From positions 1 to 23,960 of the IMG/VR virus record IMGVR_UViG_3300042904_000145: DNA of 23,960 nucleotides; one strand, given 5' to 3'. The position numbers and the translations under genes were made by a program. This document shows, in pieces, positions 1 to 23,960 of this stretch. How positions within the stretch are numbered: the stretch's first letter is position 1; every line of letters begins with the position of its first letter. A model generated the notes under the pieces. That model was given only the letters and a program-made list of their open reading frames with translations. It searched no databases and had not been told where the DNA came from. This DNA is from a virus.

Positions 1-396
1 ACGTGGCGAAAACCTGCGGACGATATTGAGGGCGCTGTTCCACACGTTGTTCCATGCACGGCCCAGTGCCGCCTTCGCCTGACTGACCAGTGCCTTGATA
101 CGCTGCACCGGGTTCTTGAGAAACTGCGCTAGACGCGGCGAGAACCTGCGGACGATGTTGAGCGCACTGTTCCATACGTTGTTCCACGCACGGCCTAACG
201 CTGCCTTCGCCTGACCGACCAGTGTCTTAATACGCTGCACCGGGTTCTTGAGAAACTGTGCTAGACGTGGCGAAAACCTGCGGACGATGTTGAGGGCGCT
301 GTTCCACACGTTGTTCCACGCACGGCCCAGTGCCGCCTTCGCCTGACTGACCAGTGCCTTGATACGCTGCACCGGGTTCTTGAGAAACTGCGCTAG
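1..396 (-). repeat. three tandem 132-bp (44-residue) repeats in the tape measure gene
   Basis: Units lie at 1-132, 133-264 and 265-396 and are in frame. Each encodes a segment around RRFSPRLAQFLKNPVQRIK and RAWNNVWNSALNIV. Units 1 and 3 differ at only 2 bases, while unit 2 differs from unit 3 at about 13 bases, most of them synonymous. Degenerate copies continue to the right (NWKQIWNNALDIVKNFSP near 400-460 and NWRAAWNIALKIVDSFSP near 530-590). The array may continue beyond the left edge. Confidence 0.95.
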
Positions 397-3300: not shown

Positions 3301-6300
3301 CGTCTCCCGGTAGTCCTTGAGGGCGTTTCGAGAGTCCTCGACCGCCTCACGTATCGCCTGCTGTCCCGCCACCACGCTGCGGCGGTAGTCTAAGAAGGCC
3401 TCCTTGGCCGCGATCTGGGCCTCGCGAACGGCCTCCTGACCCTCGATAACCGCCTCCCGGTAGTCCTTGAGGGCATTGCGGGCGTCCTCCTGCGCCTCCC
3501 TGATATCTCGGGCGCCCTCGATCTGATCGCGACGCAGGTTGCGCTGTGCCTCCCGCAGTCGACGCTGGGCCTCCTCTATGGAACGGTTACCGTCAACTAT
3601 CGCCTCGCGGTACGCCTCGTACGTTTCGCGGGCGCGTTCATGGGCTTCTGCTATGGCCTCAGCCCCGTCGCGTTGCGCCTCCACGATTTCCTTCGCGCTG
3701 TCGACCACGTCCTGCTGGGCCTCGGCGATCATCCGAGCCGCCGCGATCTGAACCTTGGCGATGTTGACCTGTGCCCTGCCCGCCTCAATCTGGGCGTCGC
3801 GCAGCTGCTCGACTGCCTCTTGTACGCCCTCGATGGCCTCCTGCTGGTCGAGGTATGCCTGCTCGACGGCGCTGCGGGCGTTCTGCAACTCGTCGGTGCC
3901 GTTCTTCTGGGCTTGGGTCAGGTCGTTCTGGGCGTTGGCCAGATCTATCGCGTCCTGCTTGCGTTCTATCTCCAAGTTGGCGATGTCCCGCTGGGCGTCC
4001 AGTATGGCCTCCATGTCGCCCACGGCGGACGCCTCGGCGAGGCGCTGGCGTGCCGCGGCCAGTTCGTACGCGGTGTCGATCTGGTCCTGCTGTGCCTTCT
4101 GTACGTCCAACTCAAGTTGAGCCTGACGGATTGGTTCGCCCGCCATGACGGCGTTGAGATCTTTCTGTGCCTGCATAAACTCTTCGGTGGCGTCCCGGGC
4201 AGAGGCGCGAGCGTCTGCCAGATTTTCCTCCATGTCCAGCACCCGGTCTAGGGCATCCAGGTAGTCCTCTCGGGCGTCCGCGATCATCTCTTCGGCCTCG
4301 ACCTGCGCGTCCGCCAGATCCTGAACGGCCTCCTGATGCCGTTCTATCGCCTTGCGGATGTCGTCTCGTACGTCCTGCTCGACTTCGGCGATCTTCTTGA
4401 TGGCGTCCTGCCACTCGTCGTACGAGTCGTTGATCTCGTCCTGTACGTCCGTGCGCGTCTCGGCGAGATCTCTTTCGGCCTCGCGGATGTCGCGCAGATC
4501 CTCCTGAATGGTGCGCGCCACCTCGCGCTCGGTTTCCCTGATGTTCTGCAGCGTCCCCACGTAGTCTTCCCACGCGTCCCTGGCGGCCTCCGCGGCCTCG
4601 ATGTTGGCCTCCTTGACATCAGAGAGACTGTCCTGATAGTCCTTCCACGCCTCGGCGGTGTCCCGGGCCACGTCTCTGGTGACCTCGCGGATGTTCTTGA
4701 GGGTCTCCTGATAGTCGGCCCACGCCTCCTTGGCGGCCTCCGCGGCCTCTACTTGGGCATCTCGCAGGTCTTCTACACTATCTTGGTAGTCTTCCCAGGC
4801 ATCCTTGGTCGCCTTGGCGGCCTCGACCTGTGCCTCCTTGATATCCCGCAGGCTGCGCTGGAAGTCGGCCCACGCCTCCTTGGCGGATCGGGCAGCCTCG
4901 ACCTGCGCCTCGCGGACGTCCTTGAGGCTGTCCTGATAGTCGGACCATGCCTCCTTGTTGGCCCGGGCGACGTCCCTCTCGACCTCTCCAACTTCCTTGA
5001 CCGCGTCCCGGTAGTCCTCCCACGCCTCCTTGTTGGCCTGAGCGACGTCCCTCTCGATCTCCCCGACTTCCTCGACCGTGTCCCGGTAGTCCTTCCACGC
5101 GTCGGCGTTGGCCTCGGCCACGGCCTTCTCCGTGCTGGCGAGTTCGGCCACCGACTCCCGGTATGCCTTCATGGCCTGCTGGTTGGCCTGTGCCGCCTCG
5201 GCGCGAGTCTCATTCAGTTGTGCCTGTGCGTCGCGCAGAGTCTGTACGGCTTCCGCCACGCCCTTGGCCGCCTCCCGCTGGGCCTGCGTCACACCGGCCA
5301 CGGCAGCGGCGAGATCCCTCTCGGCCTGTGCCACGGCCTCGTTCTGCTCGATGACCGTCCGACGATACTGGACGTGAGCCTCTTCACGTTGGGCTATGGC
5401 GTCCTTGATCTGGGCCGTGGCGTCCTTCTCGGCCTGCGCGACCCCCTCCAGCGAGGACTGGTACTCCCGCTGGGCGTCGGCGATCGCCTGCGCCCCCGAC
5501 TCGCGGACCTCCTGCAGGTTGCGCTGGGCGTCGGCCACGGCCTCGGCGGCGGCCTTCTCCGCGTCCAAGGCGGCGACCAGAGCCTGACTCGCGGCCTCAT
5601 GCTCGGATATGGCGGATATGGAGGGCAGGAAGGCGGCGGCCATCAGTCCTATGGCGCCCGCCAGCGAGGCGAACCCGGCGGTCAGTATGCCCAGTATGCC
5701 TACGAGTGGACCGAGTGCCGACACGGCCAGAACCACCGCCACCCGTCCGAGGGTGACGAGGGCTACCGTGGTCGCCTTGGTGGACTGCGCGAAACCGCCT
5801 TGCAGGGACCGCATGTTTCCGATGGACGCACGGAGGGCCGCGAGACCCGACAGTGCGCGTCCGGCGTCGATGTCTGCCTGAATCTTGAGGTTCTCGCCCG
5901 AGACGTCGCGGATCTGGGCCTCGATCTGCTGGATCGTCGCGGAGACCCTCTCGTCCCCGTCCATCTCCATCTTGAGGCGGGCCGTCTGTCCGGCCAGAGA
6001 CTTGAGCAGGTTGTTGACGATCTTGACTTCTCGCTTGGCCTCGGTCCCGTCGCCCGTGATCTTGATGTTGGCCTGCTGCGTACGGAGCCGCTGGATCATG
6101 ACCAGGATCTGGTCGGCCTTGGTTCTGGCGTCTTGGACGTCCGCGGTGACCTTCAACTCGGCACGCTGGTTTTCCACGTCAGACAGGAAGGTCTTGACCT
6201 GCGCCTCCATGGCGGCCAGCTGCTGGAACCCGGACGAGTCTATGTCGAACTTGAGTTTGAGTTCCTGAATGCTACGCAGTTTGGAGTTGAGGAAGGAGGT

Positions 6301-7026
6301 GAGGCGATTGGCGTCGGCTATGGCATCCTGCGTATCCATCTCGGCGGTGATATGCAAGGTGGGATGCATGCCATTGATCTCGGCCTGCAGGGCCGACACG
6401 CGACCGCGGAGTTCAGACTCGCTAAACTCGCCCTTGACGCGCATCTGGGCCTCGGCGGTGAAGCCGTCGACCTCTTTCAGTCCTTGTAGCATTCTGTCGA
6501 TGTCTGCGGTAGATTTACCGGCCCCTTCGAGCTCGGCCCGCATGTGAATGGCATCTCGGGAAACTTCATTCTTCATCCGTACCAGTTCTGCCAGCCCGGA
6601 ACGGAGTCGGTCTACATCCTCCTCACCCTCAAGGTGGATCTTCATGCGTTGAAGCACGGCCATCTTGCGGGCAAGGTCGGACGCCTTGGCCTCGGCGGCA
6701 TCCGTATCCAGATCTAGCCTGACCTGTCTAGTGGCCTCTAGTTCGTTGGCGATTTGCTGGCGGAGTTCGTTGAGGTTGTTGACCTCGGCCTCGATCTCAA
6801 GGCGGCGTTTCTTGGTCAATCCCTTGTTATTGAGTTCTCGCTGGAGGGCCTTTAATTTTCTGTCGGTGTCCTCGTACCCGAGCAGTTGTAGGGTGACGGT
6901 GGAGACCACGTCCTCATCGCCCATCTTGTTCGCCTCACTGCGCGCAGACTTGAGCTCGCGCACGAGTTGATCCAACTCCGAGCGAACTTTGACGATGACA
7001 TCAATCTCTTCCTGGTTCGGTCCCAA
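1..7026 (-). CDS. tail tape measure protein (3' end beyond left edge)
   Basis: The reading frame is open from 7026 to the edge, at least 2342 codons. Tape measure proteins line the tail tube during assembly and set its length; at about 0.15 nm per residue this one implies a tail of at least 350 nm. From the N terminus I see a helical region with recurring short beta-like phrases such as LKVTADVQDA and IKITGDGTEA (residues ~100-400), a hydrophobic Ala/Gly/Val/Leu segment (~420-470), a very long charged coiled coil (~480-1500) holding two 25-residue repeat blocks, then a Gly-rich hydrophobic region (~1600-2000) and 44-residue tandem repeats (from ~2211). I chose TTG at 7026, just after the GT stop, with GGAGGGG 12 bases upstream; GTG at 7056 or 7053 in the same frame is an alternative. 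It directly follows the frameshifted chaperones, the classic position. Identity is secure; the start is not. Confidence 0.93.
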   Translation of the reverse strand, partial: MGPNQEEIDVIVKVRSELDQLVRELKSARSEANKMGDEDVVSTVTLQLLGYEDTDRKLKALQRELNNKGLTKKRRLEIEAEVNNLNELRQQIANELEATRQVRLDLDTDAAEAKASDLARKMAVLQRMKIHLEGEEDVDRLRSGLAELVRMKNEVSRDAIHMRAELEGAGKSTADIDRMLQGLKEVDGFTAEAQMRVKGEFSESELRGRVSALQAEINGMHPTLHITAEMDTQDAIADANRLTSFLNSKLRSIQELKLKFDIDSSGFQQLAAMEAQVKTFLSDVENQRAELKVTADVQDARTKADQILVMIQRLRTQQANIKITGDGTEAKREVKIVNNLLKSLAGQTARLKMEMDGDERVSATIQQIEAQIRDVSGENLKIQADIDAGRALSGLAALRASIGNMRSLQGGFAQSTKATTVALVTLGRVAVVLAVSALGPLVGILGILTAGFASLAGAIGLMAAAFLPSISAISEHEAASQALVAALDAEKAAAEAVADAQRNLQEVRESGAQAIADAQREYQSSLEGVAQAEKDATAQIKDAIAQREEAHVQYRRTVIEQNEAVAQAERDLAAAVAGVTQAQREAAKGVAEAVQTLRDAQAQLNETRAEAAQANQQAMKAYRESVAELASTEKAVAEANADAWKDYRDTVEEVGEIERDVAQANKEAWEDYRDAVKEVGEVERDVARANKEAWSDYQDSLKDVREAQVEAARSAKEAWADFQRSLRDIKEAQVEAAKATKDAWEDYQDSVEDLRDAQVEAAEAAKEAWADYQETLKNIREVTRDVARDTAEAWKDYQDSLSDVKEANIEAAEAARDAWEDYVGTLQNIRETEREVARTIQEDLRDIREAERDLAETRTDVQDEINDSYDEWQDAIKKIAEVEQDVRDDIRKAIERHQEAVQDLADAQVEAEEMIADAREDYLDALDRVLDMEENLADARASARDATEEFMQAQKDLNAVMAGEPIRQAQLELDVQKAQQDQIDTAYELAAARQRLAEASAVGDMEAILDAQRDIANLEIERKQDAIDLANAQNDLTQAQKNGTDELQNARSAVEQAYLDQQEAIEGVQEAVEQLRDAQIEAGRAQVNIAKVQIAAARMIAEAQQDVVDSAKEIVEAQRDGAEAIAEAHERARETYEAYREAIVDGNRSIEEAQRRLREAQRNLRRDQIEGARDIREAQEDARNALKDYREAVIEGQEAVREAQIAAKEAFLDYRRSVVAGQQAIREAVEDSRNALKDYRETVIEGQESIREAHEQARESFQNYKETVIEGEKAIREAQRASKQSYRDYRQTVVEGEQAIREAIRGSNEAYRNYKETLRNGAEQIAEAHERAREEFNRYKETVRTGADQIADAHERQREAFDNYRDTVNEGKKQILQSQKAVRESWSNVVQTHRAGAQSIREQLNQVKVAEKGVADAIVAGQQLIRRSHQQVANQMRALAQAERNRKWAIQDALNDIKESENRVREARVAGVQAVAAAQETAANQLRNLRRTQEQAAEDEAQAMRDLKGAVEDLKKAHQEAQKAADETGAKLTKSQQRLMKAWENFIKVFTNQMKPAQRILDNVGVSVLRLGKQVMPFLGNVAERIAKRVRDGWEKVVKVFGQQDRLRALKSIFEAMPGIVRRTIDILINVGRMLLAFIAPAVPKFRQVLTTLVNLTDRAADYLESARGQKEINKLIDEGWDLMKKLGTAVWQLIKFLFQISRSKGMKEFRDDVFKIITLLTENPTVFKEFFHFLSEILGVFFKLPKPVQKFVVQGAALLLLFKAFGGGALITLVGNLGRLAAGLFRLVRGGKLARGAWGLFVKAVNGAIGVLQKVGTLIGNAIAKRFPNLAKVVANAFKVGPIKTFGNILAALMKKFSTTGLGKIFTTLGTFIVNTLKKIPIGKTMSGLLAKLPGLFGLAGKKIAGTLIARAIGVLSGPVGWILLFADIVTGGAISKGLGQFFGAIFNGMKEGWKKHGIIGLFTGFFAGLWDALNFAGIVKAFWDKLTETYRKDRNMGKGVFRSVVDAIIGGIIGGLEALPLVGPLIKWIGDAVNALLNFLGIHSPSTKSRGWAIDLVRGFIQGLTVVKFAGFLINLFRHPIETIKGVLRGAGNIFRTIISTVWRAAIGVAHTIWNALPGSWKRAIAKAVGVIRAVGQVVKNIINGNWRAAWNIALKIVDSFSPNLRKKLQAVGAIVRNIIGIIKGILSGNWKQIWNNALDIVKNFSPRLAQFLKNPVQRIKALVSQAKAALGRAWNNVWNSALNIVRRFSPRLAQFLKNPVQRIKTLVGQAKAALGRAWNNVWNSALNIVRRFSPRLAQFLKNPVQRIKALVSQAKAALGRAWNNVWNSALNIVRRFSPR
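2806..3630 (-). repeat. about eleven tandem 75-bp (25-residue) coiled-coil repeats, second block
   Basis: Read on the minus strand from 3630, the tape measure protein repeats every 25 residues with the pattern R-x-x-[YFL]-x-x-Y-[RK]-[ED]-[TA]-[VI]-x-x-G-x-x-x-I-x-E-A-x-x-x-x. Examples are RNALKDYREAVIEGQ, KEAFLDYRRSVVAGQ, RESFQNYKETVIEGE and REEFNRYKETVRTGA. The first two copies and the last copy are degenerate. Copies share little DNA identity although the protein pattern is clear, so the array is old. This block has a fixed Gly, which the first block lacks. Confidence 0.9.
4501..5175 (-). repeat. nine tandem 75-bp (25-residue) coiled-coil repeats, first block
   Basis: Read on the minus strand from 5175, the tape measure protein repeats every 25 residues with the core A-W-x-D-Y-[RQ]-[DE]-[ST]-[VL]-x-[ED]-[VI]-x-E, followed by an Ala/Glu/Lys-rich linker. 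Examples are AWKDYRDTVEEVGEIERD, AWSDYQDSLKDVREAQVE and AWEDYQDSVEDLRDAQVE. The Trp at position 2 marks this block; the second block, further along the same protein, keeps the 25-residue period but has a Gly instead. A 25-residue period equals 7+7+11, which fits a nearly straight helical bundle. Confidence 0.92.
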
Positions 7027-7027
7027 T

Positions 7028-7812
7028 TTAGGGCAGATCCCCTCCGCTGGCACCACGACCCGAGCGTGTCTTCTTGCGGGCCTTCTGCTGGGGGATGTAC
7101 TTGTATTCCCAGCGACCCGAGAGGAGTCCCTTGCGTAGCGCCTTCTTCCCCGAATCGGGATCTTGACGAATGTGATCCCAGATCGAGTACATCTGGTCTA
7201 CAATTCTAAACGAATGCCACACTTTATGCGACCCCGGCAACTCGTCATCGGGGAGAATCTTGAATTCCAGGTAATCCCAGTAGGCCTTGAGGGCAGGCAG
7301 GGGTCTGGGGTATCCCTCGGGGGATCGCTCCCGGAAGAAACTCTGACCCTCGCCCGCCTCCGCGTTGCCGCTGAGTTCCCTCAGCCACTCGCGGACCTGT
7401 GTTCTTAACTCTCGAAGGTAGGGTTTTCCTCGGCCTCCTGCGTGACCTCACCGAACTGGTTCTTAACCTCTTCGATGTCGTCAGGCAACTCGTTGAGTTT
7501 GCGGATGTGGTTGGAGATCTGATCGGAGATGTAGCCCTTCAACTTCCTGAAGGATGCATCCTCGATGGGCAACTTGTTGCCATCCTCGTCCTCGAAGTCC
7601 CAGTCCTTGATGGAGTACCGGAAGTCCGCCGACCGCTGGCGGTCGAGGCGCACGTTGGACTCGCCGTCCCCCGCGTTGGTATCGAGGATCAGGTTAGCGC
7701 GAAAGCGCATGAACTGCTCGCTCATCTCCTGCAGGTAAACGCTGGCCTTTTCCCCGCCACGGAGTTTTATTTCACGCTCGTGTAGTTCGTCGTCAACAAA
7801 GAACTTGCTCAA
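7028..7812 (-). CDS. tail assembly chaperone GT, -1 frameshift fusion
   Basis: This is the long product made when ribosomes slip one base back at 7426-7420 while reading the G gene. Codons are read in the G frame to the slip, then in the -1 frame to the TAA at 7030-7028, giving about 131 + 130 residues. The shifted frame has no start of its own near the junction. It encodes a plausible protein with YLRELRTQVREWLRELS, KAYWDYLEFKILPDDELPG and a basic C-terminal tail rich in K and R. In lambda, gpG and gpGT form a complex that binds the tape measure and delivers it to the tail tip; the T part contacts tail tube protein. Position between tail tube and tape measure, the two overlapping frames and the heptamer together support the assignment. 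Sequence similarity to known GT proteins was not tested. Confidence 0.82.
7405..7812 (-). CDS. tail assembly chaperone G
   Basis: A 135-residue protein starting MSKFFVDDELHEREIKLRGG, probably binding the tape measure protein during tail assembly. I placed the start at TTG 7812 because GGGGAGGGAGAG lies just upstream. The frame stays open further upstream to 7935, but that extension would read through a terminator hairpin and promoter and has no ribosome site. The first half resembles other phage tail chaperones (a HEREIKLRGGEKASVYLQ phrase followed by SEQFMRFRANLIL). The C terminus is acidic (NELPDDIEEVKNQFGEVTQEAEENP) and contains the slip site five codons before the TAA at 7407-7405. It has its own promoter, so it can be expressed separately from the tail tube gene. 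Confidence 0.85.
   Translation of the reverse strand: MSKFFVDDELHEREIKLRGGEKASVYLQEMSEQFMRFRANLILDTNAGDGESNVRLDRQRSADFRYSIKDWDFEDEDGNKLPIEDASFRKLKGYISDQISNHIRKLNELPDDIEEVKNQFGEVTQEAEENPTFES
7420..7426 (-). promoter_or_regulatory. programmed -1 ribosomal frameshift site AAACCCT
   Basis: On the minus strand the sequence A AAC CCT is a canonical X XXY YYZ slippery heptamer in phase with the G frame (AAC, CCT). After tandem slippage the same bases are read AAA, CCC and then TAC in the -1 frame. That frame is open for 130 more codons and ends exactly where the tape measure gene begins. The G stop codon lies 12 bases further on. Confidence 0.85.
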
Positions 7813-11510: not shown

Positions 11511-12983
11511 TTAGTTGAAGGTTCCCTTGACGAAAGCCTGCGGACGGATCGGAGCCGAACCCAGCCTTTCCTCGGCCAAGATGGCCACCATGTTCGAGGT
11601 AAAGAAATCCTTGTGCTGGTCCGCGATGCGCACGTTGGCGTCCTCGCGGTTGAGCAGGTAGACGCCCCGGTCGAAGGCACCCATGAGGAACTCTCCCTGA
11701 CGGATGGAGGTGGTCACGCGAACGTTGAGCCTCCACAGCCTCTCGACGCCACCCTCGACGACGGTCACCCACACGTAGTGGTTGTCCGTGCCCTTGGCGA
11801 GCTCGATCTCCTGCCAGTCGTAGGGGTTGACCAGGAACGCGCTCGGCGGGAACTGCGACACCTGCGCCCTCGTGATGGCCCTGCGCACGTGGTCCAACCT
11901 CCAGACGCCGTTGGCGTCCTTGGTGCCCGCGAAGTTCGGGTGAACCTGCGTGTCGGCAAGGTTCATGATGCCGCGGAGGTTCGGGCTGGTGCCGTTGCCG
12001 TAGAGCAACTGCAACTCGACGCTGAGGTCGAGGCCCGAGAGCAGCCTGTTGTTGATCAGACCCTGCAGCTGCGGGGCATCCGCCAAGGTCTGCCTGTGGG
12101 CCACCATGTAGTGGGCCACAGTTCCGATCGGGTAGGACTCTTCCGTGAAGCCGAGCAGTGAGGCCTCGGGCTTCTGGGCACCATGCGGCGTCATGCCGAT
12201 GGCCTCGGCGGTGACGGGGTCACCAGCGGCGAAGGCCGTGCCCGTGGCCGCCGTTATCGTGACCACGCGAGTGGTCTGGTTGATGGCCGATATGATCTTG
12301 GACACCGTGTTTTCGGGGTCCGCGGCGGGTGCCAGGAATATCTCCTGACCGACGAACAGTCCCGCGGTCGACTTGACCGTGATGGTGGTGGCGCTCGACA
12401 GTGCCGGCGCGTCCAACTCGGTGTAGAGGTTCGCGTACCCCAGTTCCTTGATGTAGGACACGGTGTCGGAGTTCGTGCGAATCGTCGGTATCAACTGACG
12501 GATGTCGTTGACGCGCTCCGGCCCCTCGATGACGCCCAACTCCTGCGGCTGGATGAGGTGACCCATCTGGCCGTACGCCGGACCCTCGTCGCTGGTCAGC
12601 GTCTTGGTGAACCCGCCGAAGCCCTCAAAGGCTATCTGGTCGGACTCGCCACGAGCGCCACGCTTGATGAACCGCTGAAACTCGTCGGACTGCACGACCT
12701 CGGCGCCCACGTTCTTGCGGTGCGCGCTGCCGGGTAGCACGCGGCCACCCTCGGCCTTCATCTCGTTGAGCTCCCTAGTGATCTCTTCCTGCTGCTTGAC
12801 CAAGTCTTCCATCTTGGAGTTGTACTCCTGGATGCTCTCGGCCACGGACTCGTCGATGCTTGAACGAAGCCCCTTCTGGACCTCGCCGATCTGCCTCTCC
12901 TGGTCCTTGACGACCTCTTTCAGTTCGGAGGCCGTGTTCTGAAACTCCTTGATTATTTCGTTCTTGGTTTCCTCAAGACCCAT
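11511..12983 (-). CDS. major capsid protein, HK97 fold, with N-terminal delta-like coiled coil
   Basis: A 490-residue capsid protein; the ATG has AGGAGA upstream. Residues 1-80 are a charged coiled coil (MGLEETKNEIIKEFQ ... ITRELNEMKAEGG) that should act as a built-in scaffold and be removed by the adjacent protease. The mature shell domain begins near residue 90. Typical HK97-family features follow: the IRQLIPTIRTNSDTVSYIKE strand, GAQKPEASLLGFT, HYMVAHRQTLADAP, GNGTSPNLRGIM and SAFLVNPYDWQEIELAKG. Residues ~195-262 (TTITVKSTAGLFVGQ ... TGTAFAAGDPVTAEAIG) appear to be an added beta-rich segment in the E-loop region. No separate scaffold gene is present, consistent with the built-in one. Confidence 0.92.
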   Translation of the reverse strand: MGLEETKNEIIKEFQNTASELKEVVKDQERQIGEVQKGLRSSIDESVAESIQEYNSKMEDLVKQQEEITRELNEMKAEGGRVLPGSAHRKNVGAEVVQSDEFQRFIKRGARGESDQIAFEGFGGFTKTLTSDEGPAYGQMGHLIQPQELGVIEGPERVNDIRQLIPTIRTNSDTVSYIKELGYANLYTELDAPALSSATTITVKSTAGLFVGQEIFLAPAADPENTVSKIISAINQTTRVVTITAATGTAFAAGDPVTAEAIGMTPHGAQKPEASLLGFTEESYPIGTVAHYMVAHRQTLADAPQLQGLINNRLLSGLDLSVELQLLYGNGTSPNLRGIMNLADTQVHPNFAGTKDANGVWRLDHVRRAITRAQVSQFPPSAFLVNPYDWQEIELAKGTDNHYVWVTVVEGGVERLWRLNVRVTTSIRQGEFLMGAFDRGVYLLNREDANVRIADQHKDFFTSNMVAILAEERLGSAPIRPQAFVKGTFN

Positions 12984-12996
12984 GTTCTCTCTCCTG

Positions 12997-13782
12997 CTAC
13001 TTTATGCCCAGCAGCGCACTGCCCAGGTACAATTCACCCAACACGTCCTGAAGCGCCTTCGCCTCGTCCGCGTCGTCTTGCGGCGGCTCCTGCCTCCCCC
13101 GAGTGCCTTCCAGCGGCTCGGAGTGGGCCTTGAGTGCCCTCTTCTCTTCGTCGGTTCCGAACAACAGCGTCCGTGCCTTTATCAGGGACTCGATGACCTC
13201 GTCAAGGTCTCGCGGGTCCACGGTGTCCAGCACGTCCTTCATGACGTCCGCCTGCTTGAGCAGGGTGTCCTTGCCGAAGGACTTGACTAGCGTCGCCACC
13301 TGTTGGTGCTTGGCGACGCTGCTGATGATCGCTTCCTCGTTGGCGGGGAACATCACGGGGGAGAACTCCATCAACTTGGCCTCGGTGATGTGGCGAGTCC
13401 AGTTGTCCTCCTCGAACCATGCCTTGCCCTCGGGAATCCGAAAGCCGACCGACATGGTCTTGACCACGCCATCTCGCATGTACACGAGACGGTCCTTGTT
13501 CTCGTGGGTGTCGGACGCCTGCCCGACTACATAGAGTCCATGGTCGTCCTCGTGGAGTTCCAGGGGCATCCCGAAGGGTTCCATGTGTCCCCATAGCACC
13601 TTGATGTCGTTGGAGCCGTTGGGACCACGCTCCGCAATGCTCTTGCGGTAGCACCCCTTCTCCATGATGTCATCAACCAAGTCCTTGTTACCAAAGGTAC
13701 TGGCGTACCCCTCAAACTGCCGTTCCCCAAGATTTACCTTGCACTCAAAGGGCAGGCTCTTGGTAATCACACCACTGTTCAA
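12997..13782 (-). CDS. HK97-type prohead maturation protease
   Basis: A 261-residue serine protease of the HK97 prohead protease family (herpesvirus assemblin-like fold). Visible signatures are FEGYASTFGNKDLVDDIMEKG near residue 23, the LWGH His motif (~63-66), EDDHGLYVVGQA, the Ser motif KTMSVGFRIPEG (~108-119), and LMEFSPVMFPANEEA. The His and Ser are the expected catalytic residues. The C-terminal third is charged and helical. It should cleave the capsid protein's N-terminal coiled coil inside the prohead. The start is TTG 13782 with AGGGG 5 bases upstream; the capsid gene follows after 13 bases. A structured leader and a promoter-like sequence lie upstream, so it begins a new transcription unit with the capsid gene. 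Confidence 0.92.
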   Translation of the reverse strand: MNSGVITKSLPFECKVNLGERQFEGYASTFGNKDLVDDIMEKGCYRKSIAERGPNGSNDIKVLWGHMEPFGMPLELHEDDHGLYVVGQASDTHENKDRLVYMRDGVVKTMSVGFRIPEGKAWFEEDNWTRHITEAKLMEFSPVMFPANEEAIISSVAKHQQVATLVKSFGKDTLLKQADVMKDVLDTVDPRDLDEVIESLIKARTLLFGTDEEKRALKAHSEPLEGTRGRQEPPQDDADEAKALQDVLGELYLGSALLGIK

Positions 13783-13918: not shown

Positions 13919-13938
13919 ACCCCCACTGGGGTGGGGGT
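13919..13938 (-). terminator. intrinsic terminator after the CsbD-like gene
   Basis: On the minus strand ACCCCCAC-CCCA-GTGGGGGT is a perfect 8-bp stem followed by CTTTTGTTG. Just before it (13960-13941) is a second hairpin, TCGCTC-ACCGTAAC-GAGCGA. Together they lie 16-57 bases after the stop of the CsbD-like gene and separate the early head genes from the protease/capsid unit. Confidence 0.75.
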
Positions 13939-13975: not shown

Positions 13976-14182
13976 CTACCCGCCGAGCAGCTTGCCCAGC
14001 GGGTTGTCCTTCGCCCTGGCCTCGCGCTCGGCACGCTCCGCGGCCTTTTCCTTCTCCTTGGCCTTTTTCTTGGCGTCGGCGTCAGCCCAACGCTGCTCCG
14101 CCTTGCCCTCGGCCTTCCTGTCCTCGTCGCCGATTATGGCGCCGTAGGCCTCCTTGGCCTTGCCTGAAGTTTTATCGCTCAT
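13976..14182 (-). CDS. CsbD-like small protein
   Basis: A 68-residue protein starting MSDKTSGKAKEAYGAIIGDE and continuing DRKAEGKAEQ. This is the CsbD family pattern (DK-x-x-GK-x-KEA-x-G-x-x-x-x-D-x-x-x-x-x-EGK), known from bacterial general-stress proteins. The second half is an almost pure Lys/Glu/Ala helix (AKEKEKAAERAEREARAKD) ending NPLGKLLGG, unusual for bacterial members. AAAGGAGAGG lies before the ATG. It sits alone between two terminators, downstream of the 33-residue basic peptide. What a CsbD-like protein does in a phage is unknown; a charged helical protein at this position could be a small internal head or assembly protein. The family call is good and the function is open. Confidence 0.8.
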   Translation of the reverse strand: MSDKTSGKAKEAYGAIIGDEDRKAEGKAEQRWADADAKKKAKEKEKAAERAEREARAKDNPLGKLLGG

Positions 14183-14198
14183 ACTGCCTCTCCTTTAC

Positions 14199-14227
14199 AA
14201 AAACCTTCTATTTAACTGAAGGTTTTT
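14199..14227 (-). terminator. intrinsic terminator after the basic-peptide gene
   Basis: On the minus strand AAAAACCTTC, a 9-base loop, then GAAGGTTTTT forms a 10-bp A/T-ended stem with a T run built into the stem. The stem begins within the stop codon of the 33-residue peptide gene (14228-14226) and ends about 5 bases before the Shine-Dalgarno of the CsbD-like gene. It should work in both directions and probably lets some transcription through. Confidence 0.75.
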
Positions 14228-14327
14228 ACCGCTTGTTCTTGCCACGCTTGCTGCGCTTACCGCCGCGGCTCCCGCCGTTGCGCATCCGAGCGCGACCATA
14301 CCGGCTGATCTTCCGCTTGGTCTCCAT
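14226..14327 (-). CDS. 33-residue very basic peptide
   Basis: A short frame starting METKRKISRYGRARMRNGG and continuing with Ser/Gly/Arg/Lys to a KNKR end. Close to half of its residues are Lys or Arg and there are only two acidic residues... in fact a single Glu near the start. GGGGGTGAG sits directly before the ATG, and a terminator begins at its stop codon, so it looks like a real, separately punctuated gene. The composition suggests binding to DNA or RNA, or to acidic capsid surfaces, and is reminiscent of small ribosomal proteins and DNA-condensing peptides. I do not recognise a family. It lies between the Ntn hydrolase and the CsbD-like gene within the head operon. Confidence 0.65.
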   Translation of the reverse strand: METKRKISRYGRARMRNGGSRGGKRSKRGKNKR

Positions 14328-14364
14328 TACTCACCCCCTATTGCCTTTACGTAAAAGGATCTCA

Positions 14365-14781
14365 CTACATATATTCTACCTGAACTGCGCCCCCGGTGTA
14401 GGCGTCCCCCTTGGCGGCGAAGTGGATGGCGTCGACGGGGGACATGCCAGACCGCAGGGCCGCGAGCGCCGTCTCCTGCCCCGACCCGATGGCGTGGGCA
14501 CCGTCCACCAGTTCTATGGCCACCCCCTCGTTGGAGTACAGGTACAGGCCGTCGGGTGTCAACACTAGGGCAATGAAGTCGTTGTCGATGTCCTCCAGAT
14601 GGCTGCGGTCCTCGCCCTTCTCAAACCACTCAACGAACTTCTTGCACTCGAAGATGCTGCCCGTACACCCAATGATTCCCCTGCTCGTCCGGTACAACTT
14701 CTTCACGTTGTACTTTACGTACCCCCCGTTAGCCTGGGAGTCGCTGGCCATCATCTCCCGGTTTGCTGCTATCGTCGTCAT
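14365..14781 (-). CDS. HslV/proteasome beta-like Ntn hydrolase
   Basis: A 138-residue protein starting MTTIAANREMMASDSQANGG. Removal of Met would expose Thr, as in HslV and proteasome beta subunits (HslV starts TTI). Further matches are an early Asp in ASDSQ, the YNVKKLYR Lys motif at the place of HslV K33, a GIIGCTGSIFECKKFVEWF segment like the HslV helix after strand S2, GLYLYSNEG, the strongly conserved AIGSGQETALAALRSG, and a C-terminal AAKGDAYTGGAVQVEYM like the HslV end. It is shorter than HslV (about 175 residues) and no HslU-type ATPase is present here. AGGGAG precedes ATG 14781, which lies inside the 3' end of the portal gene (53-base overlap). A second protease beside the HK97-type enzyme is unusual. 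The family is clear; peptidase activity is inferred. Confidence 0.82.
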   Translation of the reverse strand: MTTIAANREMMASDSQANGGYVKYNVKKLYRTSRGIIGCTGSIFECKKFVEWFEKGEDRSHLEDIDNDFIALVLTPDGLYLYSNEGVAIELVDGAHAIGSGQETALAALRSGMSPVDAIHFAAKGDAYTGGAVQVEYM

Positions 14782-16351
14782 CGCGCTCCCTCTCGATCTC
14801 CTTGCGCAGCATCTCGCGGATGCGCTCAACTCTCTTCTCAGTTTCCTCGTCGGTTTGTGAGGTGTCGGTCCCGTTTCCCTCGTTGTTCTCGTCGGGGTTG
14901 TCCGACTCGCCGCCGTCGGGATTGGAGTTCTGGTCGCCCGTGTTGCCCGTGACGTTCGGCTCGTTCTCCGCGGCCAGCACGTTGGGCACGGAACGGCTGC
15001 TGGCCGGCAGGAAGCCGACGTCCAGACCTTCCAACTCGTCGTCATAGAATCCCAACCGCAGTCGGCGGTTGATGGCCTTGAGGGGGACGCCGTTGCGGGC
15101 GATTAGGGTCACCGACTTGGCCTTGTCGTGGAAGATATCCTGCAGGGCGTCTACGTTCATGGTGTCGTACCACACAAGCAGGTCGCCCCCGAACTCGGGC
15201 ACCAGACTGCGGTTGAAGTTGGACTGCAGCCGGTCCATCCAGGGCAGGATCAGGGTCGTGTAGTGGCGTCGGTCTATTTCCTTCATGTCGGGGTTGCCCT
15301 GAATGATACCCGCGACTCGCGGGTCGACACCAAACACGGCACAGATGCCCTCGCGGGTCATCTTACGGCTCTCGATAAAATCCATCTCCACCGGGGTCAA
15401 CGACAATTGATAGTACTTCGCGTTATTACCCATCAGCATCGGGGTACGGGCGTTGCCACGTCCGTAGTACTGCACGCGCATCTGCTCGCGCATGACCTCG
15501 AACTCGGTCTCGTCGATCTCGTCTTGGATGGCGAAGACCCCATCGGGGGCTGCACGGTTCTCCATCGACTGCCTCTGCCATTCGACCGAGGCCACGTCCA
15601 TGTCTATGATGCGGGCCGCGGACTTCAGCACGCTGCCCCCCCAGTACAGGTCGTCGGGGTCGGGCAGCAGCATGTGTATGACGTCCTGAACCGGGATCTC
15701 CATCGGCTTTTGCTGGTCGGGCACTTCCATCTCGTAGTGCTTGATGAACTTCCTGCGGTCGGGCACGGGGTTGAAGTTATCGGGTGGCATGACCCACAAC
15801 TCCAGCGGCGGCCCCTGCCCCGAGACGCCACGCCCACGCTTGGGGGCGCGCACCTTGGTCACGATGGTGTTGCCCCCGAGTAGCAGGTGCTGCGTCATGC
15901 GCTCGATCATGGTTTGCCGGTCGAGGAAGGGGTTCGGGTTTTCCAGAAGTTTCTCCAGCGGGTGGTCCGGCTCCGGCTCAAGGTAGTGGCTCTTGGTGAC
16001 CATGGCCTTCTCGTTCATGGCGTGGTAGGAGTGGATGAAGGCGGAACGCTCCTCGGCGGGTATCGACTTCATCTCCCACACGAACCGCTTCTTGGCGTCG
16101 GGCGACGAGAAGCGGGACACGCGCCATGGGATGGTGGAGGCGGGGGAGGCGATGCGGTCCACGTTAATCTTGACCCACTCGTTCTGGTTGAACCCCTCCG
16201 AAACCCCCAATTTGGTGGTCCAGCGCCGGGGTAGCCGGGGCGTCCAGTTGCGCGAGGGTACCAGCACCCCGGCGGTCACGGACTTTGCGTTGTCTGGACC
16301 CACCCCCGCGGCGGACCTCGCGGCGTATCCTATTAAGTCTATAATTCCCAT
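14729..16351 (-). CDS. portal protein, HK97 family
   Basis: A 540-residue portal protein, the dodecameric ring through which DNA enters and leaves the head. The start is ATG 16351 with GGGGAGG upstream; an in-frame start at 16435 lies inside the preceding gene and is rejected. Typical HK97-portal features are WVKINVDRIASPASTIPWRV near residue 60, HPLEKLLENPNPFLDRQTMIE, LLLGGNTIVTKV, LWVMPPDNFNPVPD, VIHMLLPDPDDLYWGGSVLK, and the adaptive-helix region with SRKMTREGICAVFGVDPRVAG. The last ~90 residues are a disordered Asn/Asp/Glu-rich tail (NTGDQNSNPDGGESDNPDEN) plus a charged helix, longer than usual. It overlaps the next gene by 53 bases. Confidence 0.93.
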   Translation of the reverse strand: MGIIDLIGYAARSAAGVGPDNAKSVTAGVLVPSRNWTPRLPRRWTTKLGVSEGFNQNEWVKINVDRIASPASTIPWRVSRFSSPDAKKRFVWEMKSIPAEERSAFIHSYHAMNEKAMVTKSHYLEPEPDHPLEKLLENPNPFLDRQTMIERMTQHLLLGGNTIVTKVRAPKRGRGVSGQGPPLELWVMPPDNFNPVPDRRKFIKHYEMEVPDQQKPMEIPVQDVIHMLLPDPDDLYWGGSVLKSAARIIDMDVASVEWQRQSMENRAAPDGVFAIQDEIDETEFEVMREQMRVQYYGRGNARTPMLMGNNAKYYQLSLTPVEMDFIESRKMTREGICAVFGVDPRVAGIIQGNPDMKEIDRRHYTTLILPWMDRLQSNFNRSLVPEFGGDLLVWYDTMNVDALQDIFHDKAKSVTLIARNGVPLKAINRRLRLGFYDDELEGLDVGFLPASSRSVPNVLAAENEPNVTGNTGDQNSNPDGGESDNPDENNEGNGTDTSQTDEETEKRVERIREMLRKEIERERDDDDSSKPGDDGQRLPG

Positions 16352-16353
16352 GC

Positions 16354-16554
16354 TTATGCCTCCCCGTTGGCGGGTACCGGCACCCTGGCCCAGCACACGT
16401 CGCACATCCACTTGTCTAACCCTACGGGTCCCCACCCGTACTTTTGCATCGCGTAATTATACGCGTCCATAAACGTCTTACCCTCGATCGTGCATTCTCC
16501 GCCACACTTCTCGCACTTGAACTTGACATAGACCGGTTGAGACTTCTTGCCCAT
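16354..16554 (-). CDS. small zinc-ribbon-like protein between terminase and portal
   Basis: A 66-residue protein starting MGKKSQPVYVKFKCEKCGGE. Two C-x-x-C pairs (CEKC near residue 14 and CDVC near residue 51), plus CGGEC, frame a central helix FMDAYNYAMQKYG. This is the layout of a small zinc ribbon or treble clef. GAGGA lies 8 bases before ATG 16554 within the end of the terminase gene, and its stop is 2 bases before the portal ATG. It is co-translated with the packaging genes. It could bind DNA or help assemble the packaging machine, but I know of no assigned function and infer only metal binding. Confidence 0.75.
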   Translation of the reverse strand: MGKKSQPVYVKFKCEKCGGECTIEGKTFMDAYNYAMQKYGWGPVGLDKWMCDVCWARVPVPANGEA

Positions 16555-16556
16555 GA

Positions 16557-17969
16557 CTAGATCCTCGCGACCAGCAGCTTGCCCGACCGGCTGCCCCGGG
16601 CCTCACCCGCCAGTGCCGCCGCCACGATGGAGTCCGGCGTATGCTCGTTCCCGTACAGCATGTCCACGGTGAGGTACTTGTGTTCCTCGTACATGAACTT
16701 GATCATGGGGTACTCAAACTCCCCCGACTCGCAGTCGGCCACGTAACGGTTGAGCAGCCGATCGCGCTGCTTGATGTTCCTGAAGTCCACGCCCCTAGAC
16801 GCCACCGTCATGTAGTCGTGGGGTACCGACCCCACGCCCGTGATGTCGTGAGCGTTCTTGCCCACGTACGCCTCGGTGCGCTCGTTGTGCTTGCCCACCA
16901 TGTCCGGCCACTTGCGCCGACCCATTCTAATCCAGGCCGCGAGACGGTCGGGACCGCGGCGGTGTTTCTCCATGGTGTGGATCACGGTCCAGTCGTGGGA
17001 CTTGGCCCAGTCCGTTCCCGTGTAGTACTCGCGCCCCTCCAGGGCTGGCGAGAGTATGATGTCCTGCCCCTCGGCCCCCTCGTAGAACCCGAGCTCGGGT
17101 CGGAACAGCATCTCCAGCACGTCCTCGCTGAATATGCGCCCCTCGGGGTTCGGTTCCTGTCCCTCGTACTCGGCAAACCACATGGCGGTGGGGATGCTGA
17201 TCTTCTTCTCTTCGACCTCGTCGTCATCCAACCAGCCGCCGTTGGACTGCAGGTTCTCCCGGTAGCACCACTCGTACATCCCCCACCCGTTCAACTTCGC
17301 CCGACGCATGGCGTCAGACATGGTGCCGTCGACGTGCTGGTGGGTGGACGAGCAGACGGTGTGCGCCTTGATGCCGTGGGCGCTCATGGGCTGGCCCAAG
17401 GCGGAGTCGAAGATCCCCACGTCCATCTCGTCGATCTCGTCGAGACGTAGCCGCTGGGGGTGTGGTCCACGCACGGACGTGGCGGAGGCCATCAGGGCGC
17501 GAACCAGCGCCCCATTACTGAGGCGGAGTTCCCGCTTGTACGCCTCCATGATCATGTTGCGGGGCGCAAAGGGAGAGTCGAAGAACTGGCCCTTGGTGCG
17601 CGAGTGCGTGCCCGAGATGTACGCCTGAACGTTCTGCGACTGCTCGCCCGAGCCGCCGAGGATGTTCACGTTGGCACCGAGCGTCAGCGCCTCGGTCAGC
17701 GTCAGCAGCGCCAGCATGACCGTCTTGCCCCCGAACCCTCGCGACGCCTTCCATACGGCGATGGGATCGCGGGCGAAGTAGGCGTTGGCGAAGGCCGTGA
17801 AGGGCGCCACGTGATGCTCGCAGACCCTCTTTCGGGGTATGTCGAACCCCAGGTAGAGTTCCACCCAGTCGTGTAGCCAGTCATCATTTTGGGGCGCGAC
17901 CGTACGGTAGTTACGAAGTGCCTTCTTCTTCTCCTCCGCCGGCAGCCCTCTTATATAGTTCTTCAGCAA
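16557..17969 (-). CDS. terminase large subunit
   Basis: A 470-residue packaging motor. The ATPase part shows a Walker A-like KASRGFGGKT (74-83), Walker B with catalytic acid in RLRLDEIDEM (173-182) and coupling motif CSSTHQ (206-211). The nuclease part shows GTDWAKSHDWTVI with the first metal-binding Asp (~320), an HDITGVG segment (~374) and a terminal Asp in TPDSIVAAALAG (~446). The start is TTG 17969 with GAGGAAC just upstream, inside the small subunit gene (59-base overlap). ATP hydrolysis drives DNA into the head through the portal; the nuclease cuts genome units. All expected motifs are intact. Confidence 0.93.
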   Translation of the reverse strand: MLKNYIRGLPAEEKKKALRNYRTVAPQNDDWLHDWVELYLGFDIPRKRVCEHHVAPFTAFANAYFARDPIAVWKASRGFGGKTVMLALLTLTEALTLGANVNILGGSGEQSQNVQAYISGTHSRTKGQFFDSPFAPRNMIMEAYKRELRLSNGALVRALMASATSVRGPHPQRLRLDEIDEMDVGIFDSALGQPMSAHGIKAHTVCSSTHQHVDGTMSDAMRRAKLNGWGMYEWCYRENLQSNGGWLDDDEVEEKKISIPTAMWFAEYEGQEPNPEGRIFSEDVLEMLFRPELGFYEGAEGQDIILSPALEGREYYTGTDWAKSHDWTVIHTMEKHRRGPDRLAAWIRMGRRKWPDMVGKHNERTEAYVGKNAHDITGVGSVPHDYMTVASRGVDFRNIKQRDRLLNRYVADCESGEFEYPMIKFMYEEHKYLTVDMLYGNEHTPDSIVAAALAGEARGSRSGKLLVARI

Positions 17970-18492
17970 GTTGTTCCTCTGACATCTTGTCCAACTCTTC
18001 CACCGGGGTCTTACCGTTGGAGTCGTCGGACAGGTACTTGGCCAGATCCAGCTGCACGCGCATCAGGTTGGACAATCCGGCCAACGTGATCTTGTCGGGG
18101 TCGATGGAGTCACCCTGCGCGAGGGTCGTCATCATCGCCTCAAGCGTGTTCTGGATGGTGAAGAAGTTCTCCTGCAGGTTGTCCCGTAGCCTCTCCACGT
18201 TGACGCCCTGACGCTGGGCCTCCTTCACGACGCCCTTCTCGTACGCCCCCCGCCGCTTCTTGGCCAGGTCGGCGTCCGCGGCCCGGGCACGTTCGGCCCA
18301 CTTGAACTTGCGGCTCCACTGCTTGAAGGACGAGGACGGCTGGGCGCCCGACGCGTCGGGCGTGATCTCGATGTACTTTGTCCACGCGTTTTCTATAGTC
18401 CGGACACGCGGGTCGATGCTTAGGTAGCACTCAAACGCCTTGTACTGGCGCTCGTTCTCATCGTCCCACATGTCCCATGCATTTTTCGCCAC
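17911..18492 (-). CDS. probable terminase small subunit
   Basis: A 193-residue mainly helical protein starting MAKNAWDMWDDENERQYKAF. I chose GTG 18492 because GGGGAGGGG is directly upstream and the promoter at 18548-18520 gives a short leader; a longer in-frame form to 18546 would include the promoter. The N-terminal half has a helix-turn-helix-like part (AFECYLSIDPRVRTIENAWTKY, SSSFKQWSRKFKWAERARAAD), suitable for recognising the packaging site. The middle is a helical region (NVERLRDNLQENFFTIQNTL) and the C terminus is acidic, ending GGGEEEGTS, suited to binding the large subunit. Position as first gene of the leftward block just before the large subunit supports the call. Confidence 0.75.
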   Translation of the reverse strand: MAKNAWDMWDDENERQYKAFECYLSIDPRVRTIENAWTKYIEITPDASGAQPSSSFKQWSRKFKWAERARAADADLAKKRRGAYEKGVVKEAQRQGVNVERLRDNLQENFFTIQNTLEAMMTTLAQGDSIDPDKITLAGLSNLMRVQLDLAKYLSDDSNGKTPVEELDKMSEEQLAEELYKRAAGGGEEEGTS

Positions 18493-18519
18493 ATGCCCCT
18501 CCCCAAGGGTTAGATTCAC

Positions 18520-18548
18520 ATTGTAGTCGTAATGGCAACCTTGCACAA
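18520..18548 (-). promoter_or_regulatory. leftward promoter of the packaging/head operon
   Basis: On the minus strand TTGTGC (18548-18543), a 17-base spacer and TACAAT (18525-18520). The start site would be near 18513, giving a leader of about 20 bases with GGGGAGGGG before GTG 18492. Confidence 0.7.
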
Positions 18549-20396: not shown

Positions 20397-20621
20397 ATGG
20401 GAGTATTCAAGAAAGACCGGTACCGGGAGGGGTCGCGGGTGCAGATCGTGTCCTCGCCCTACACGGAATCCCGGCACATCGTGGGGCTGGAGATGGTGAT
20501 CGCCTCCCGTCCAAACGGCCTATCCGAGAAGGGCGTGCTGGAGGTTCGCATGCCCGAGGCGCCCCGGACGGAACGGTCGGAGTACGTGAGGCCCACAGAG
20601 GTGATCGAACTTGGAGATTAA
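20397..20621 (+). CDS. 74-residue hypothetical protein
   Basis: Starts MGVFKKDRYREGSRVQIVSS with an excellent AGGAGGGAC before ATG 20397. It has alternating beta-like stretches (SRVQIVSSP, LEMVIASRPNG, GVLEVRMPEAP) and an Arg/Pro/Glu-rich end (SEYVRPTEVIELGD), resembling a small SH3-like barrel; that is a guess from pattern. Its last 11 bases overlap the nucleotidyltransferase start, so expression of the two is linked. Confidence 0.78.
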   Translation: MGVFKKDRYREGSRVQIVSSPYTESRHIVGLEMVIASRPNGLSEKGVLEVRMPEAPRTERSEYVRPTEVIELGD

Positions 20622-21582
20622 CGCCCTGATCGGCCCCGCGTGGATGAAGGACATGCCCGCCGTGGCACAACTAAGCGTTGATACCAGAACCCTGTTTCTG
20701 GGGTACCGCGGCAGCATCGCGCATGGTATGCATGTGCCCAGCACGGACCCCGACTCGATCGATGACATCGACCTGATGGGCGTGTTCATGGGAACCGAGG
20801 CCTACTATCTGGGCTTCGGCGGCAAGGACACTAGGGAAGTGACCGCCGAGTACCCCACGGGCTACTACGACGTGGTCTTCTACGAGTGGCGCAAGTTTAT
20901 TCACCTGCTGCTCAAGAACAACCCCAACGTGCTGGGGATGCTGTGGCTGCCCGAGTACATGCACCACGTCACCTCTCCCTTGTGGGGAATACTGGTGCGT
21001 CACCGTGGGGTCTTCGCCTCCAAGTTGGCCTACAAGACTTTCGGCGGATACGCGCACGCGCAGATGAAGAAGATGACCCGTGCCCGCATCGACCCATCGA
21101 CCAATCAGGAACTGCAGGCTATAGAGAAGGAGATACGTCGTCGCGAGGGCGCAATTACTACGGCAGAGGCGTCCAACCTCACGGGGTACACGCTGTCGCT
21201 ATCGACGCAGCAACTCCGCGAGAGGGTGAACGAACTCCGCGGGTATCAGGGGTACATGGGACCCAAGCGCCGGGAACTGGTCGAGCGCCACGGGTACGAC
21301 ACCAAGAACGCGGCCCACCTGATCCGGCTGCTGAGGATGGGCTGCGAGTTCCTTGAGCGTGGCGACATGTATCTGGACCGTCGGGCCGAGGGCGACGCGG
21401 AGCAGCTTCTGGACATCAAGCGGGGCAATTGGTCCCTGCAGGACGTCCAGAGTCTCGCCAATACCCTGTTCATCGCGCTGGAGGCGGCCAGAAACGCCAG
21501 CCGCCTGCCCGAATTGCCAGACCGCGAGGCCGCGGAACGGCTCCTGATCGACGGCGTGAAGGAGGCCCATGGGTTTAATTGA
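20611..21582 (+). CDS. predicted nucleotidyltransferase (COG3541/RlaP-like)
   Basis: A 323-residue protein. The polymerase-beta-type active site is visible: GYRGSIAHGM (31-40, the G-S turn of the nucleotide-binding helix) and DSIDDIDLMGVFMG (48-61) with the metal-binding D-x-D. The following TREVTAEYPTGYYDVVFYEWRKFIHLLLKNNPNVLGMLWLPE matches the pattern of predicted nucleotidyltransferases proposed to act in RNA repair. The C-terminal half is helical and basic (RRELVERHGYDTKNAAHLIRLL, LLDIKRGNW). The start is TTG 20611 with GAGG 9 bases upstream. Expected reaction: transfer of a nucleotide to RNA or another acceptor; the substrate is unknown. Its 3' end overlaps the nuclease-like gene by 14 bases. 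Confidence 0.8.
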   Translation: MEINALIGPAWMKDMPAVAQLSVDTRTLFLGYRGSIAHGMHVPSTDPDSIDDIDLMGVFMGTEAYYLGFGGKDTREVTAEYPTGYYDVVFYEWRKFIHLLLKNNPNVLGMLWLPEYMHHVTSPLWGILVRHRGVFASKLAYKTFGGYAHAQMKKMTRARIDPSTNQELQAIEKEIRRREGAITTAEASNLTGYTLSLSTQQLRERVNELRGYQGYMGPKRRELVERHGYDTKNAAHLIRLLRMGCEFLERGDMYLDRRAEGDAEQLLDIKRGNWSLQDVQSLANTLFIALEAARNASRLPELPDREAAERLLIDGVKEAHGFN

Positions 21583-23459: not shown

Positions 23460-23627
23460 GTGATAGACGCTGATGCACTTGCCGAGTTCACTTCACTGAC
23501 CCCCTACGGGGCCAAAATGCTGCTGGCTCAAAGCCCAGATCGTGTCGAGGCCCTGATCCTTCAGAAGGCTGAGGAGGGGCTGCGGATGATCGAGTGGTGG
23601 CTAAACCAGTATCACCCGTTCTCGTAG
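23460..23627 (+). CDS. 55-residue helical protein
   Basis: Starts MIDADALAEFTSLTPYGAKM at GTG 23460, preceded by a near-perfect AAGGAGGG. The sequence suggests two or three helices (DADALAEFTSL, YGAKMLLAQ, RVEALILQKAEEGLRMIEWWLNQYH). It ends inside the 3' end of the convergent HNH gene (16-base overlap). No family is recognised; a small regulatory or adaptor protein is possible. Its own promoter box and folded leader suggest separate control from the block to its left. Confidence 0.7.
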   Translation: MIDADALAEFTSLTPYGAKMLLAQSPDRVEALILQKAEEGLRMIEWWLNQYHPFS

Positions 23628-23960
23628 AGGTAGTTGATCGCGTCACGGAGTCGTTCAGGATCGTCCCCGAACTTCCCCAACCCGGTGTTGCACGTATAGC
23701 ATAGCAAACCGCGTACTTTCCCAGTGTCATGGCAGTGGTCTACGGTGAACTTGCCAGAAAGTTCCTTGCGGCACAACGCACAGGCGTGTCCCTGAGAATC
23801 CAGCATGTCTTCTATGTCTTCGTGGCTTAATCCGTACCGACTTTTGCGCTGGATCTTTTGCCAGTATAGTGGGTCTTCCTCCACCCTTCGCTTGGCATGC
23901 TCCTTAGCGCGTGCCTTCACCTGTTCCTTGTTCTTCTCGTAATACTTTCTCTTAGCGGCT
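23612..23960 (-). CDS. HNH endonuclease, endonuclease VII type (5' end beyond right edge)
   Basis: The frame is open from the right edge; 115 codons are visible. The C-terminal part is a clear recombination endonuclease VII-type HNH domain: YGLSHEDIEDMLDSQGHACALC with the first zinc Cys pair, VDHCHDTGKVRGLLC with the catalytic D-H-x-H, CYTCNTGLGKFGDDPERLRDA with the second Cys pair and the conserved Asn. Upstream is a Lys/Glu/Arg helix (KYYEKNKEQVKARAKEHAKRR), usual for this family. Internal GTG 23920 could be a start, but the same frame and composition continue to the edge, so the true start is probably outside. Such enzymes nick or resolve branched DNA or act in packaging or mobility. Confidence 0.9.
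   Translation of the reverse strand, partial: AAKRKYYEKNKEQVKARAKEHAKRRVEEDPLYWQKIQRKSRYGLSHEDIEDMLDSQGHACALCRKELSGKFTVDHCHDTGKVRGLLCYTCNTGLGKFGDDPERLRDAINYLYENG

Follow-up and report, generated by a model that had tools for sequence, protein, structure and literature searches.

A divergent PPH-type Ntn hydrolase encoded behind the portal gene of a tailed phage

The window analysed here is an entire viral contig of 23,960 bases. The same stretch was found on two more contigs with 99.98% DNA identity, one of them 39 kb in length; being near-identical, both are uninformative on selection. No DNA-level match of the window to named phages was found. On the minus strand, at positions 14365–14781, the list of open reading frames and their translations contains a gene with an ATG start for a proteasome-like Ntn hydrolase of 138 amino acids. 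The protein begins with M-TTI and has no propeptide, and the motifs that had drawn attention to it (M-TTI, ASDSQ, VKKLY and AIGSGQETALAALRSG) were all recovered in the translation. Proteasome homologs of approximately 140 residues, encoded by tailed phages and devoid of helix H2, have been named PPH by Fuchs, Alva and Lupas (2021; PMC8665760), a size with which the 138 residues agree. The designation as a PPH-type Ntn hydrolase is based on the ORF, its match to PHROG 1040, its residues and a structure model.

The genes around the locus are all encoded on the minus strand, in the order small terminase, probable large terminase, Cys-rich ORF, portal and Ntn hydrolase, then a basic ORF, a hairpin, a CsbD-like ORF, a second hairpin, an S78 protease and the capsid gene. 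The terminase small subunit (17911–18546) was recognised by phrog_6299 (E = 8e-12). The following ORF (16557–17969) gave no terminase match in PHROG, Pfam or PDB; judged from its position and the Walker-like stretches ASRGFGGKT and RLRLDEIDEMD, it is probably a very divergent terminase large subunit. Between this gene and the portal gene lies a small Cys-rich ORF (16354–16554) with a zinc-ribbon-like pattern (CEKCGG...CDVC), for which a Pfam search returned no match. The portal protein (14729–16360) was identified with PF04860 (E = 5e-46) and phrog_2662 (E = 2.5e-53). The first 53 nt of the Ntn hydrolase gene overlap the 3' end of the portal gene, whose stop is at 14729, and by position the former thus belongs to the portal-side unit.

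Immediately behind the Ntn hydrolase gene, a strongly basic ORF of 33 amino acids (METKRKISRYGRARMRNGGSRGGKRSKRGKNKR; 14227–14328) is followed by a terminator-like hairpin with a T-run (14196–14232, −10.7 kcal/mol). An ORF of 68 amino acids (13976–14182) resembles the CsbD stress-protein family below the threshold of the model (PF05532, 28.4 bits, cutoff 40) and is also weakly matched by phrog_4133. A second terminator-like hairpin, predicted by folding at 13919–13938, precedes the gene of the HK97-type prohead protease (S78; 12997–13782; PF04586, E = 6.5e-23; TIGR01543, 85.8 bits, cutoff 59), which is itself followed by the HK97-fold major capsid protein (11511–12983; PF05065, E = 4e-39). The placement of the Ntn hydrolase gene between portal and protease/capsid, as given in the original prediction, is therefore correct. 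The same prediction had located it in a phage head operon together with an HK97-type protease; the protease is indeed present, but two ORFs and two terminator-like hairpins lie between the two genes and render a shared transcript uncertain.

Elsewhere in the window, a minus-strand frame of 2399 amino acids (1–7197) runs open off the contig end and, by position, represents the tape measure gene; the numerous long ORFs on the plus strand of this region resemble antisense shadows. By eye, an ORF of 102 amino acids (23612–23920, minus strand; CALCRKEL...VDHCHDTGKVRGLLCYTCN) looks like an HNH endonuclease of the recombination endonuclease VII type, and an ORF of 323 amino acids (20611–21582, plus strand; LGYRGSIAHGMHVPSTDPDSIDDIDLMGVF) like a nucleotidyltransferase.

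The Ntn hydrolase matched PHROG 1040, annotated 'peptidase HslV family', over residues 1–137 (E = 9e-32). At E ≤ 0.01 it was matched by 488 phage records, and in 484 the match covered 80% or more of the protein; PHROG 1040 was also matched by all 72 aligned relatives. At the sequence level, a family resemblance far beyond chance was thus confirmed. The highest identity to anything found was no more than 43%, and no close homologs were present in a collection of genome contigs. The match to the HslV pattern had been described as near-perfect, which proved to be overstated. As a single sequence, the protein resembles real HslV only locally (residues 70–111, E = 0.007), and it remained below the cutoffs of Pfam Proteasome (18.3 bits, cutoff 22.4) and of the curated HslV model TIGR03692 (16.2 bits, cutoff 157.75). 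While the single sequence thus stayed below the curated cutoffs, the proposed profile search was positive when the profile of the 72 relatives was compared with the PDB: proteasome beta-type subunits were matched over the full length (E = 4e-14), followed by HslV (E = 1e-11) and BPH (E = 1.6e-9).

The active-site set is complete, with Thr2, Asp14, Lys28 and Gly41 corresponding to Thr1, Asp17, Lys33 and Gly47 of the canonical numbering. Further residues are Ser100 and the motif Asp126-x-x-Thr129-Gly-Gly; the D-x-x-S/T-G pattern near the C terminus corresponds to Asp166/Ser169 of proteasome beta subunits. The search for relatives used a degenerate DNA pattern that covers the C-terminal part and leaves the N-terminal catalytic residues free; it yielded 120 relatives. 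In their alignment, position 2 is Thr in 117 and Ser in three of the 120 readable rows, so that the N-terminal Thr, on which the original prediction depended, is retained in relatives not selected on that position. Asp14 (119/119), Lys28 (120/120) and Gly41 (117/119) are equally conserved; Ser100, Asp126 and Thr129-Gly-Gly are also common to the relatives, yet they were part of the search pattern. Two additional scans yielded Thr or Ser directly after the start codon in 310 of 311 complete relatives, a count that is partly circular because ATG-ACN-ACN was a selection criterion in one of them. The sole exception (L148) carries TTI a few residues further in, which suggests that its start was probably mis-set. 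That the full catalytic set is kept at a mutual identity of only some 30% speaks for a functional enzyme.

An AlphaFold model of the monomer, calculated with the 72 aligned relatives from viral contigs, reached a pLDDT of 94.7 and a pTM of 0.89. The four-layer alpha-beta-beta-alpha Ntn fold, on which the original prediction had been staked beforehand, is present in this model. The best structural match was HslV (Z 19.6, 136 residues, rmsd 1.9), with proteasome beta subunits at Z 17–18 and BPH at Z 17.2, and residue 2 of the model superposes on residue 1 of the mature HslV and proteasome chains, which places the nucleophile at the N terminus. Helix H1 (43–55) is followed by only a six-residue helix (59–64) before the next strand, and the sequence gap relative to HslV 1m4y falls at the same site; helix H2 is thus missing in the predicted structure. 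The view of the protein as a proteasome/HslV-type Ntn hydrolase can be retained for the proteasome fold, but not for HslV proper: the failed TIGR03692 model (16.2 vs 157.75 bits) and the missing H2 rule out membership in HslV.

These results indicate that the protein is a real, divergent member of the known phage family PPH. This membership is based on size, missing H2, residues, host type and PHROG 1040. Since PPH was already described in 2021, the protein itself is not new (PMC8665760). For their new homologs, the same authors reported neither a genomic context nor an AAA+ partner hinting at function (PMC8665760). No experimental work on the activity, substrate or oligomeric state of PPH was found in the open-access literature, and one phage paper merely lists a 'proteasome-like' gene (PMC7289586).

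The results agree with the statement that no HslU-type ATPase accompanies the gene, although a host unfoldase such as HslU may still be available to the protein. No HslU/Clp-type AAA_2 ATPase was detected in the 39-kb contig of the window's phage (phage records may be incomplete), and AAA_2, the domain of ClpA/X- and HslU-type ATPases, was detected in only one of 37 records carrying the family, whereas the same search succeeded in each of 14 control genomes.

The genomic position of the family gene was then compared among relatives. The PF04860 portal occurs in three of 50 family records and, apart from the window's phage, never adjoins the Ntn hydrolase gene. It was thus rejected as a regular neighbour; likewise, the S78 protease (3/50 records) was rejected as a regular partner. 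Other portal families were recognised by PHROGs. A portal gene lies directly upstream of the family gene in the L047 group (21 records; phrog_104, 1-nt overlap), in L127 (also phrog_104), in L039 (phrog_3753) and in L084 (phrog_145), and in L240 the upstream gene belongs to phrog_332, which is annotated as a head-tail adaptor and also matches the P22-type portal. At the junctions in these lineages, the two genes overlap by up to 4 nt or are separated by at most 1 nt. A BLASTP comparison of the five portal types, including that of the window, revealed no significant similarity among them. Five lineages whose portals are unrelated to one another thus have the family gene directly behind the portal gene, a pattern that is new here. 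The tree requires about five changes of the portal-linked state, at least two of which are forced by well-supported branches. As helix H2 is kept in the model of L047, the portal linkage spans two subgroups.

The large terminase adjoins the family gene in nine further lineages (L004, L034, L085, L130, L226, L229, L258, L273 and L281). Across 140 clusters, 30 genes next to the family gene encode 350 amino acids or more, and 18 of these are portal, terminase or minor-head genes (binomial p = 5e-5 if a quarter is expected, 0.002 if a third, both expectations being our own estimates); the test is post hoc and is based on clusters that are not fully independent. In 13 of the 26 records with a locatable terminase, the family gene lies within 3 kb of the large subunit, closer than under uniform placement (Fisher p = 4e-5 for the 26 records and 0.03 for a subset of 17 that are larger and less redundant). 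In several large-genome phages, the family gene is located amid DNA metabolism genes (PhoH, DNA ligase or primase neighbourhoods), far from head genes. A conserved partner gene was ruled out, with no neighbour family shared by more than three lineages (at most 3 of 132 upstream and 3 of 133 downstream). The packaging-gene signal is therefore only moderate and compatible with a cargo hotspot; the pairing with portal and terminase is real, but was found after the fact. As a separate observation, the terminase large subunit ORF of L004 (4530–7955) is 1141 amino acids long with intein-like insertions, and is directly followed by a proteasome homolog of 175 amino acids and a DUF4055 portal-like gene.

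From these data, the protein is proposed to be a catalytically competent, late-made PPH, i.e. an N-terminal-Thr peptidase without its own unfoldase, a proposal to which we give about as much credence as doubt. With a stripped-down proteasome beta-type fold lacking H2, as seen from sequence and model, its competence is suggested by conservation. The host methionine aminopeptidase would strip Met1, as Thr at position 2 permits, and expose Thr2, with no propeptide to be removed. By analogy with proteasome and HslV chemistry, Thr2 would act as nucleophile in a site completed by Asp14, Lys28 and Gly41. The gene is positioned to be translated right behind the portal, so that its product is probably made late. 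The enzyme would most likely act on peptides or unfolded chains independently of ATP, because a Clp/HslU-type unfoldase went undetected in the 39-kb contig and in nearly all relatives. Its substrates may be proteins of the head, such as scaffold, prohead debris or portal tails, or else host or defence proteins. The recurrent portal/terminase pairing speaks for action at the head or packaging stage, or for a slot of late expression, but is proof of neither. Proteasome-type active sites usually require oligomer assembly for activity, and the loss of H2 could make such oligomer-dependent activity fail, which counts against a competent peptidase. The small self-assembling ring of the original prediction is a hypothesis, as are its second maturation protease, internal head protein and capture of the host HslU/Clp machinery. 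The distance of many relatives from head genes and the lack of a shared neighbour mean that the position may be just a cargo hotspot.

Several other explanations were weighed against the proposed unfoldase-independent peptidase. The first is an enzyme of head assembly that would be produced in amounts matching the portal, enter or attend the prohead, and trim scaffold, portal or capsid tails or break down the peptides that the S78 protease leaves behind. The 53-nt overlap with the portal gene, the upstream portals of L047, L127, L039, L084 and L240, the terminase or minor-head neighbours of other relatives and the roughly estimated enrichment (18/30) are in line with this role, which nevertheless appears rather unlikely: relatives distant from head genes are common, the rarity of S78 (3/50) means no regular protease pairing, two hairpins separate the Ntn and protease genes in the window, and the neighbour test was post hoc. 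Somewhat less probable still is a role as cargo, with an accessory gene (moron) that targets host proteostasis or defence and is carried in insertion slots of the late module, in which case proximity to packaging genes would only mark where cargo is tolerated. The patchy occurrence over some 490–700 phage records (E 0.01 to E 10) with unrelated neighbours and the roughly five separate changes in portal linkage, at least two of them forced, fit cargo. Against it stand the catalytic site, which shows no decay in even very divergent sequences, and an enrichment near packaging genes beyond uniform placement. A bolder proposal, which we consider improbable, is that the mini-hydrolases are recurrent and independently recruited partners of portal and packaging machines, co-translated with the portal and acting at the portal vertex or prohead of unrelated phages, e.g. 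in scaffold clearing or portal trimming. Finally, capture of the host's HslU/Clp unfoldase by a phage-encoded HslV would fit the best structural match (Z 19.6), but is very hard to reconcile with the failed HslV family model (16 vs 158 bits), the helix H2 missing from the model and the lack of an AAA+ partner for the new homologs of Fuchs et al. (PMC8665760).

PPH proteins are among the smallest proteasome relatives, and the active-site set is intact in the window's member. The portal/terminase pairing gives a positional hint to when and where PPH may act, and its repeated siting beside packaging genes of unrelated phages renders the role testable, with concrete test phages named by the context, among them cultured phages with a relative of the gene that public collections keep, for example a Kagunavirus or a Phapecoctavirus. 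If action in head assembly were true, a further, unrelated type of protease would take part in capsid maturation; if the protein were a portal partner, a proteasome-derived maturation enzyme would exist besides the known prohead proteases.

Compared with known systems, the protein is closest to PPH and PHROG 1040, with which it shares a length of about 140 amino acids, the absence of H2 and of a propeptide, the conserved Thr1/Asp17/Lys33/Gly47 set, the origin from tailed phages and the lack of a detected AAA+ partner. It differs in being at most 43% identical to anything found and, with regard to PPH, in the coupling of its gene to the portal gene, whereas the PPH authors reported no context from which a function could be read. 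HslV (ClpQ), itself a double hexameric ring, has the same fold, a Thr nucleophile behind Met1 and a local GSG motif; in contrast, the window's protein is under the HslV model cutoffs, approximately 36 residues shorter and without H2, and HslU was not found in its phage. The profile matches proteasome beta subunits and BPH over the full length, and the D-x-x-S/T-G motif near the C terminus is shared with the former, but the window's protein is much shorter than both and lacks H2 and the S12/H5 elements. The L047-type proteasome homologs of other phages are likewise encoded directly behind a portal gene and have the same catalytic residues; being longer (169–177 amino acids) and retaining, in the model, a helix H2 of 19 residues, they form a different subgroup.
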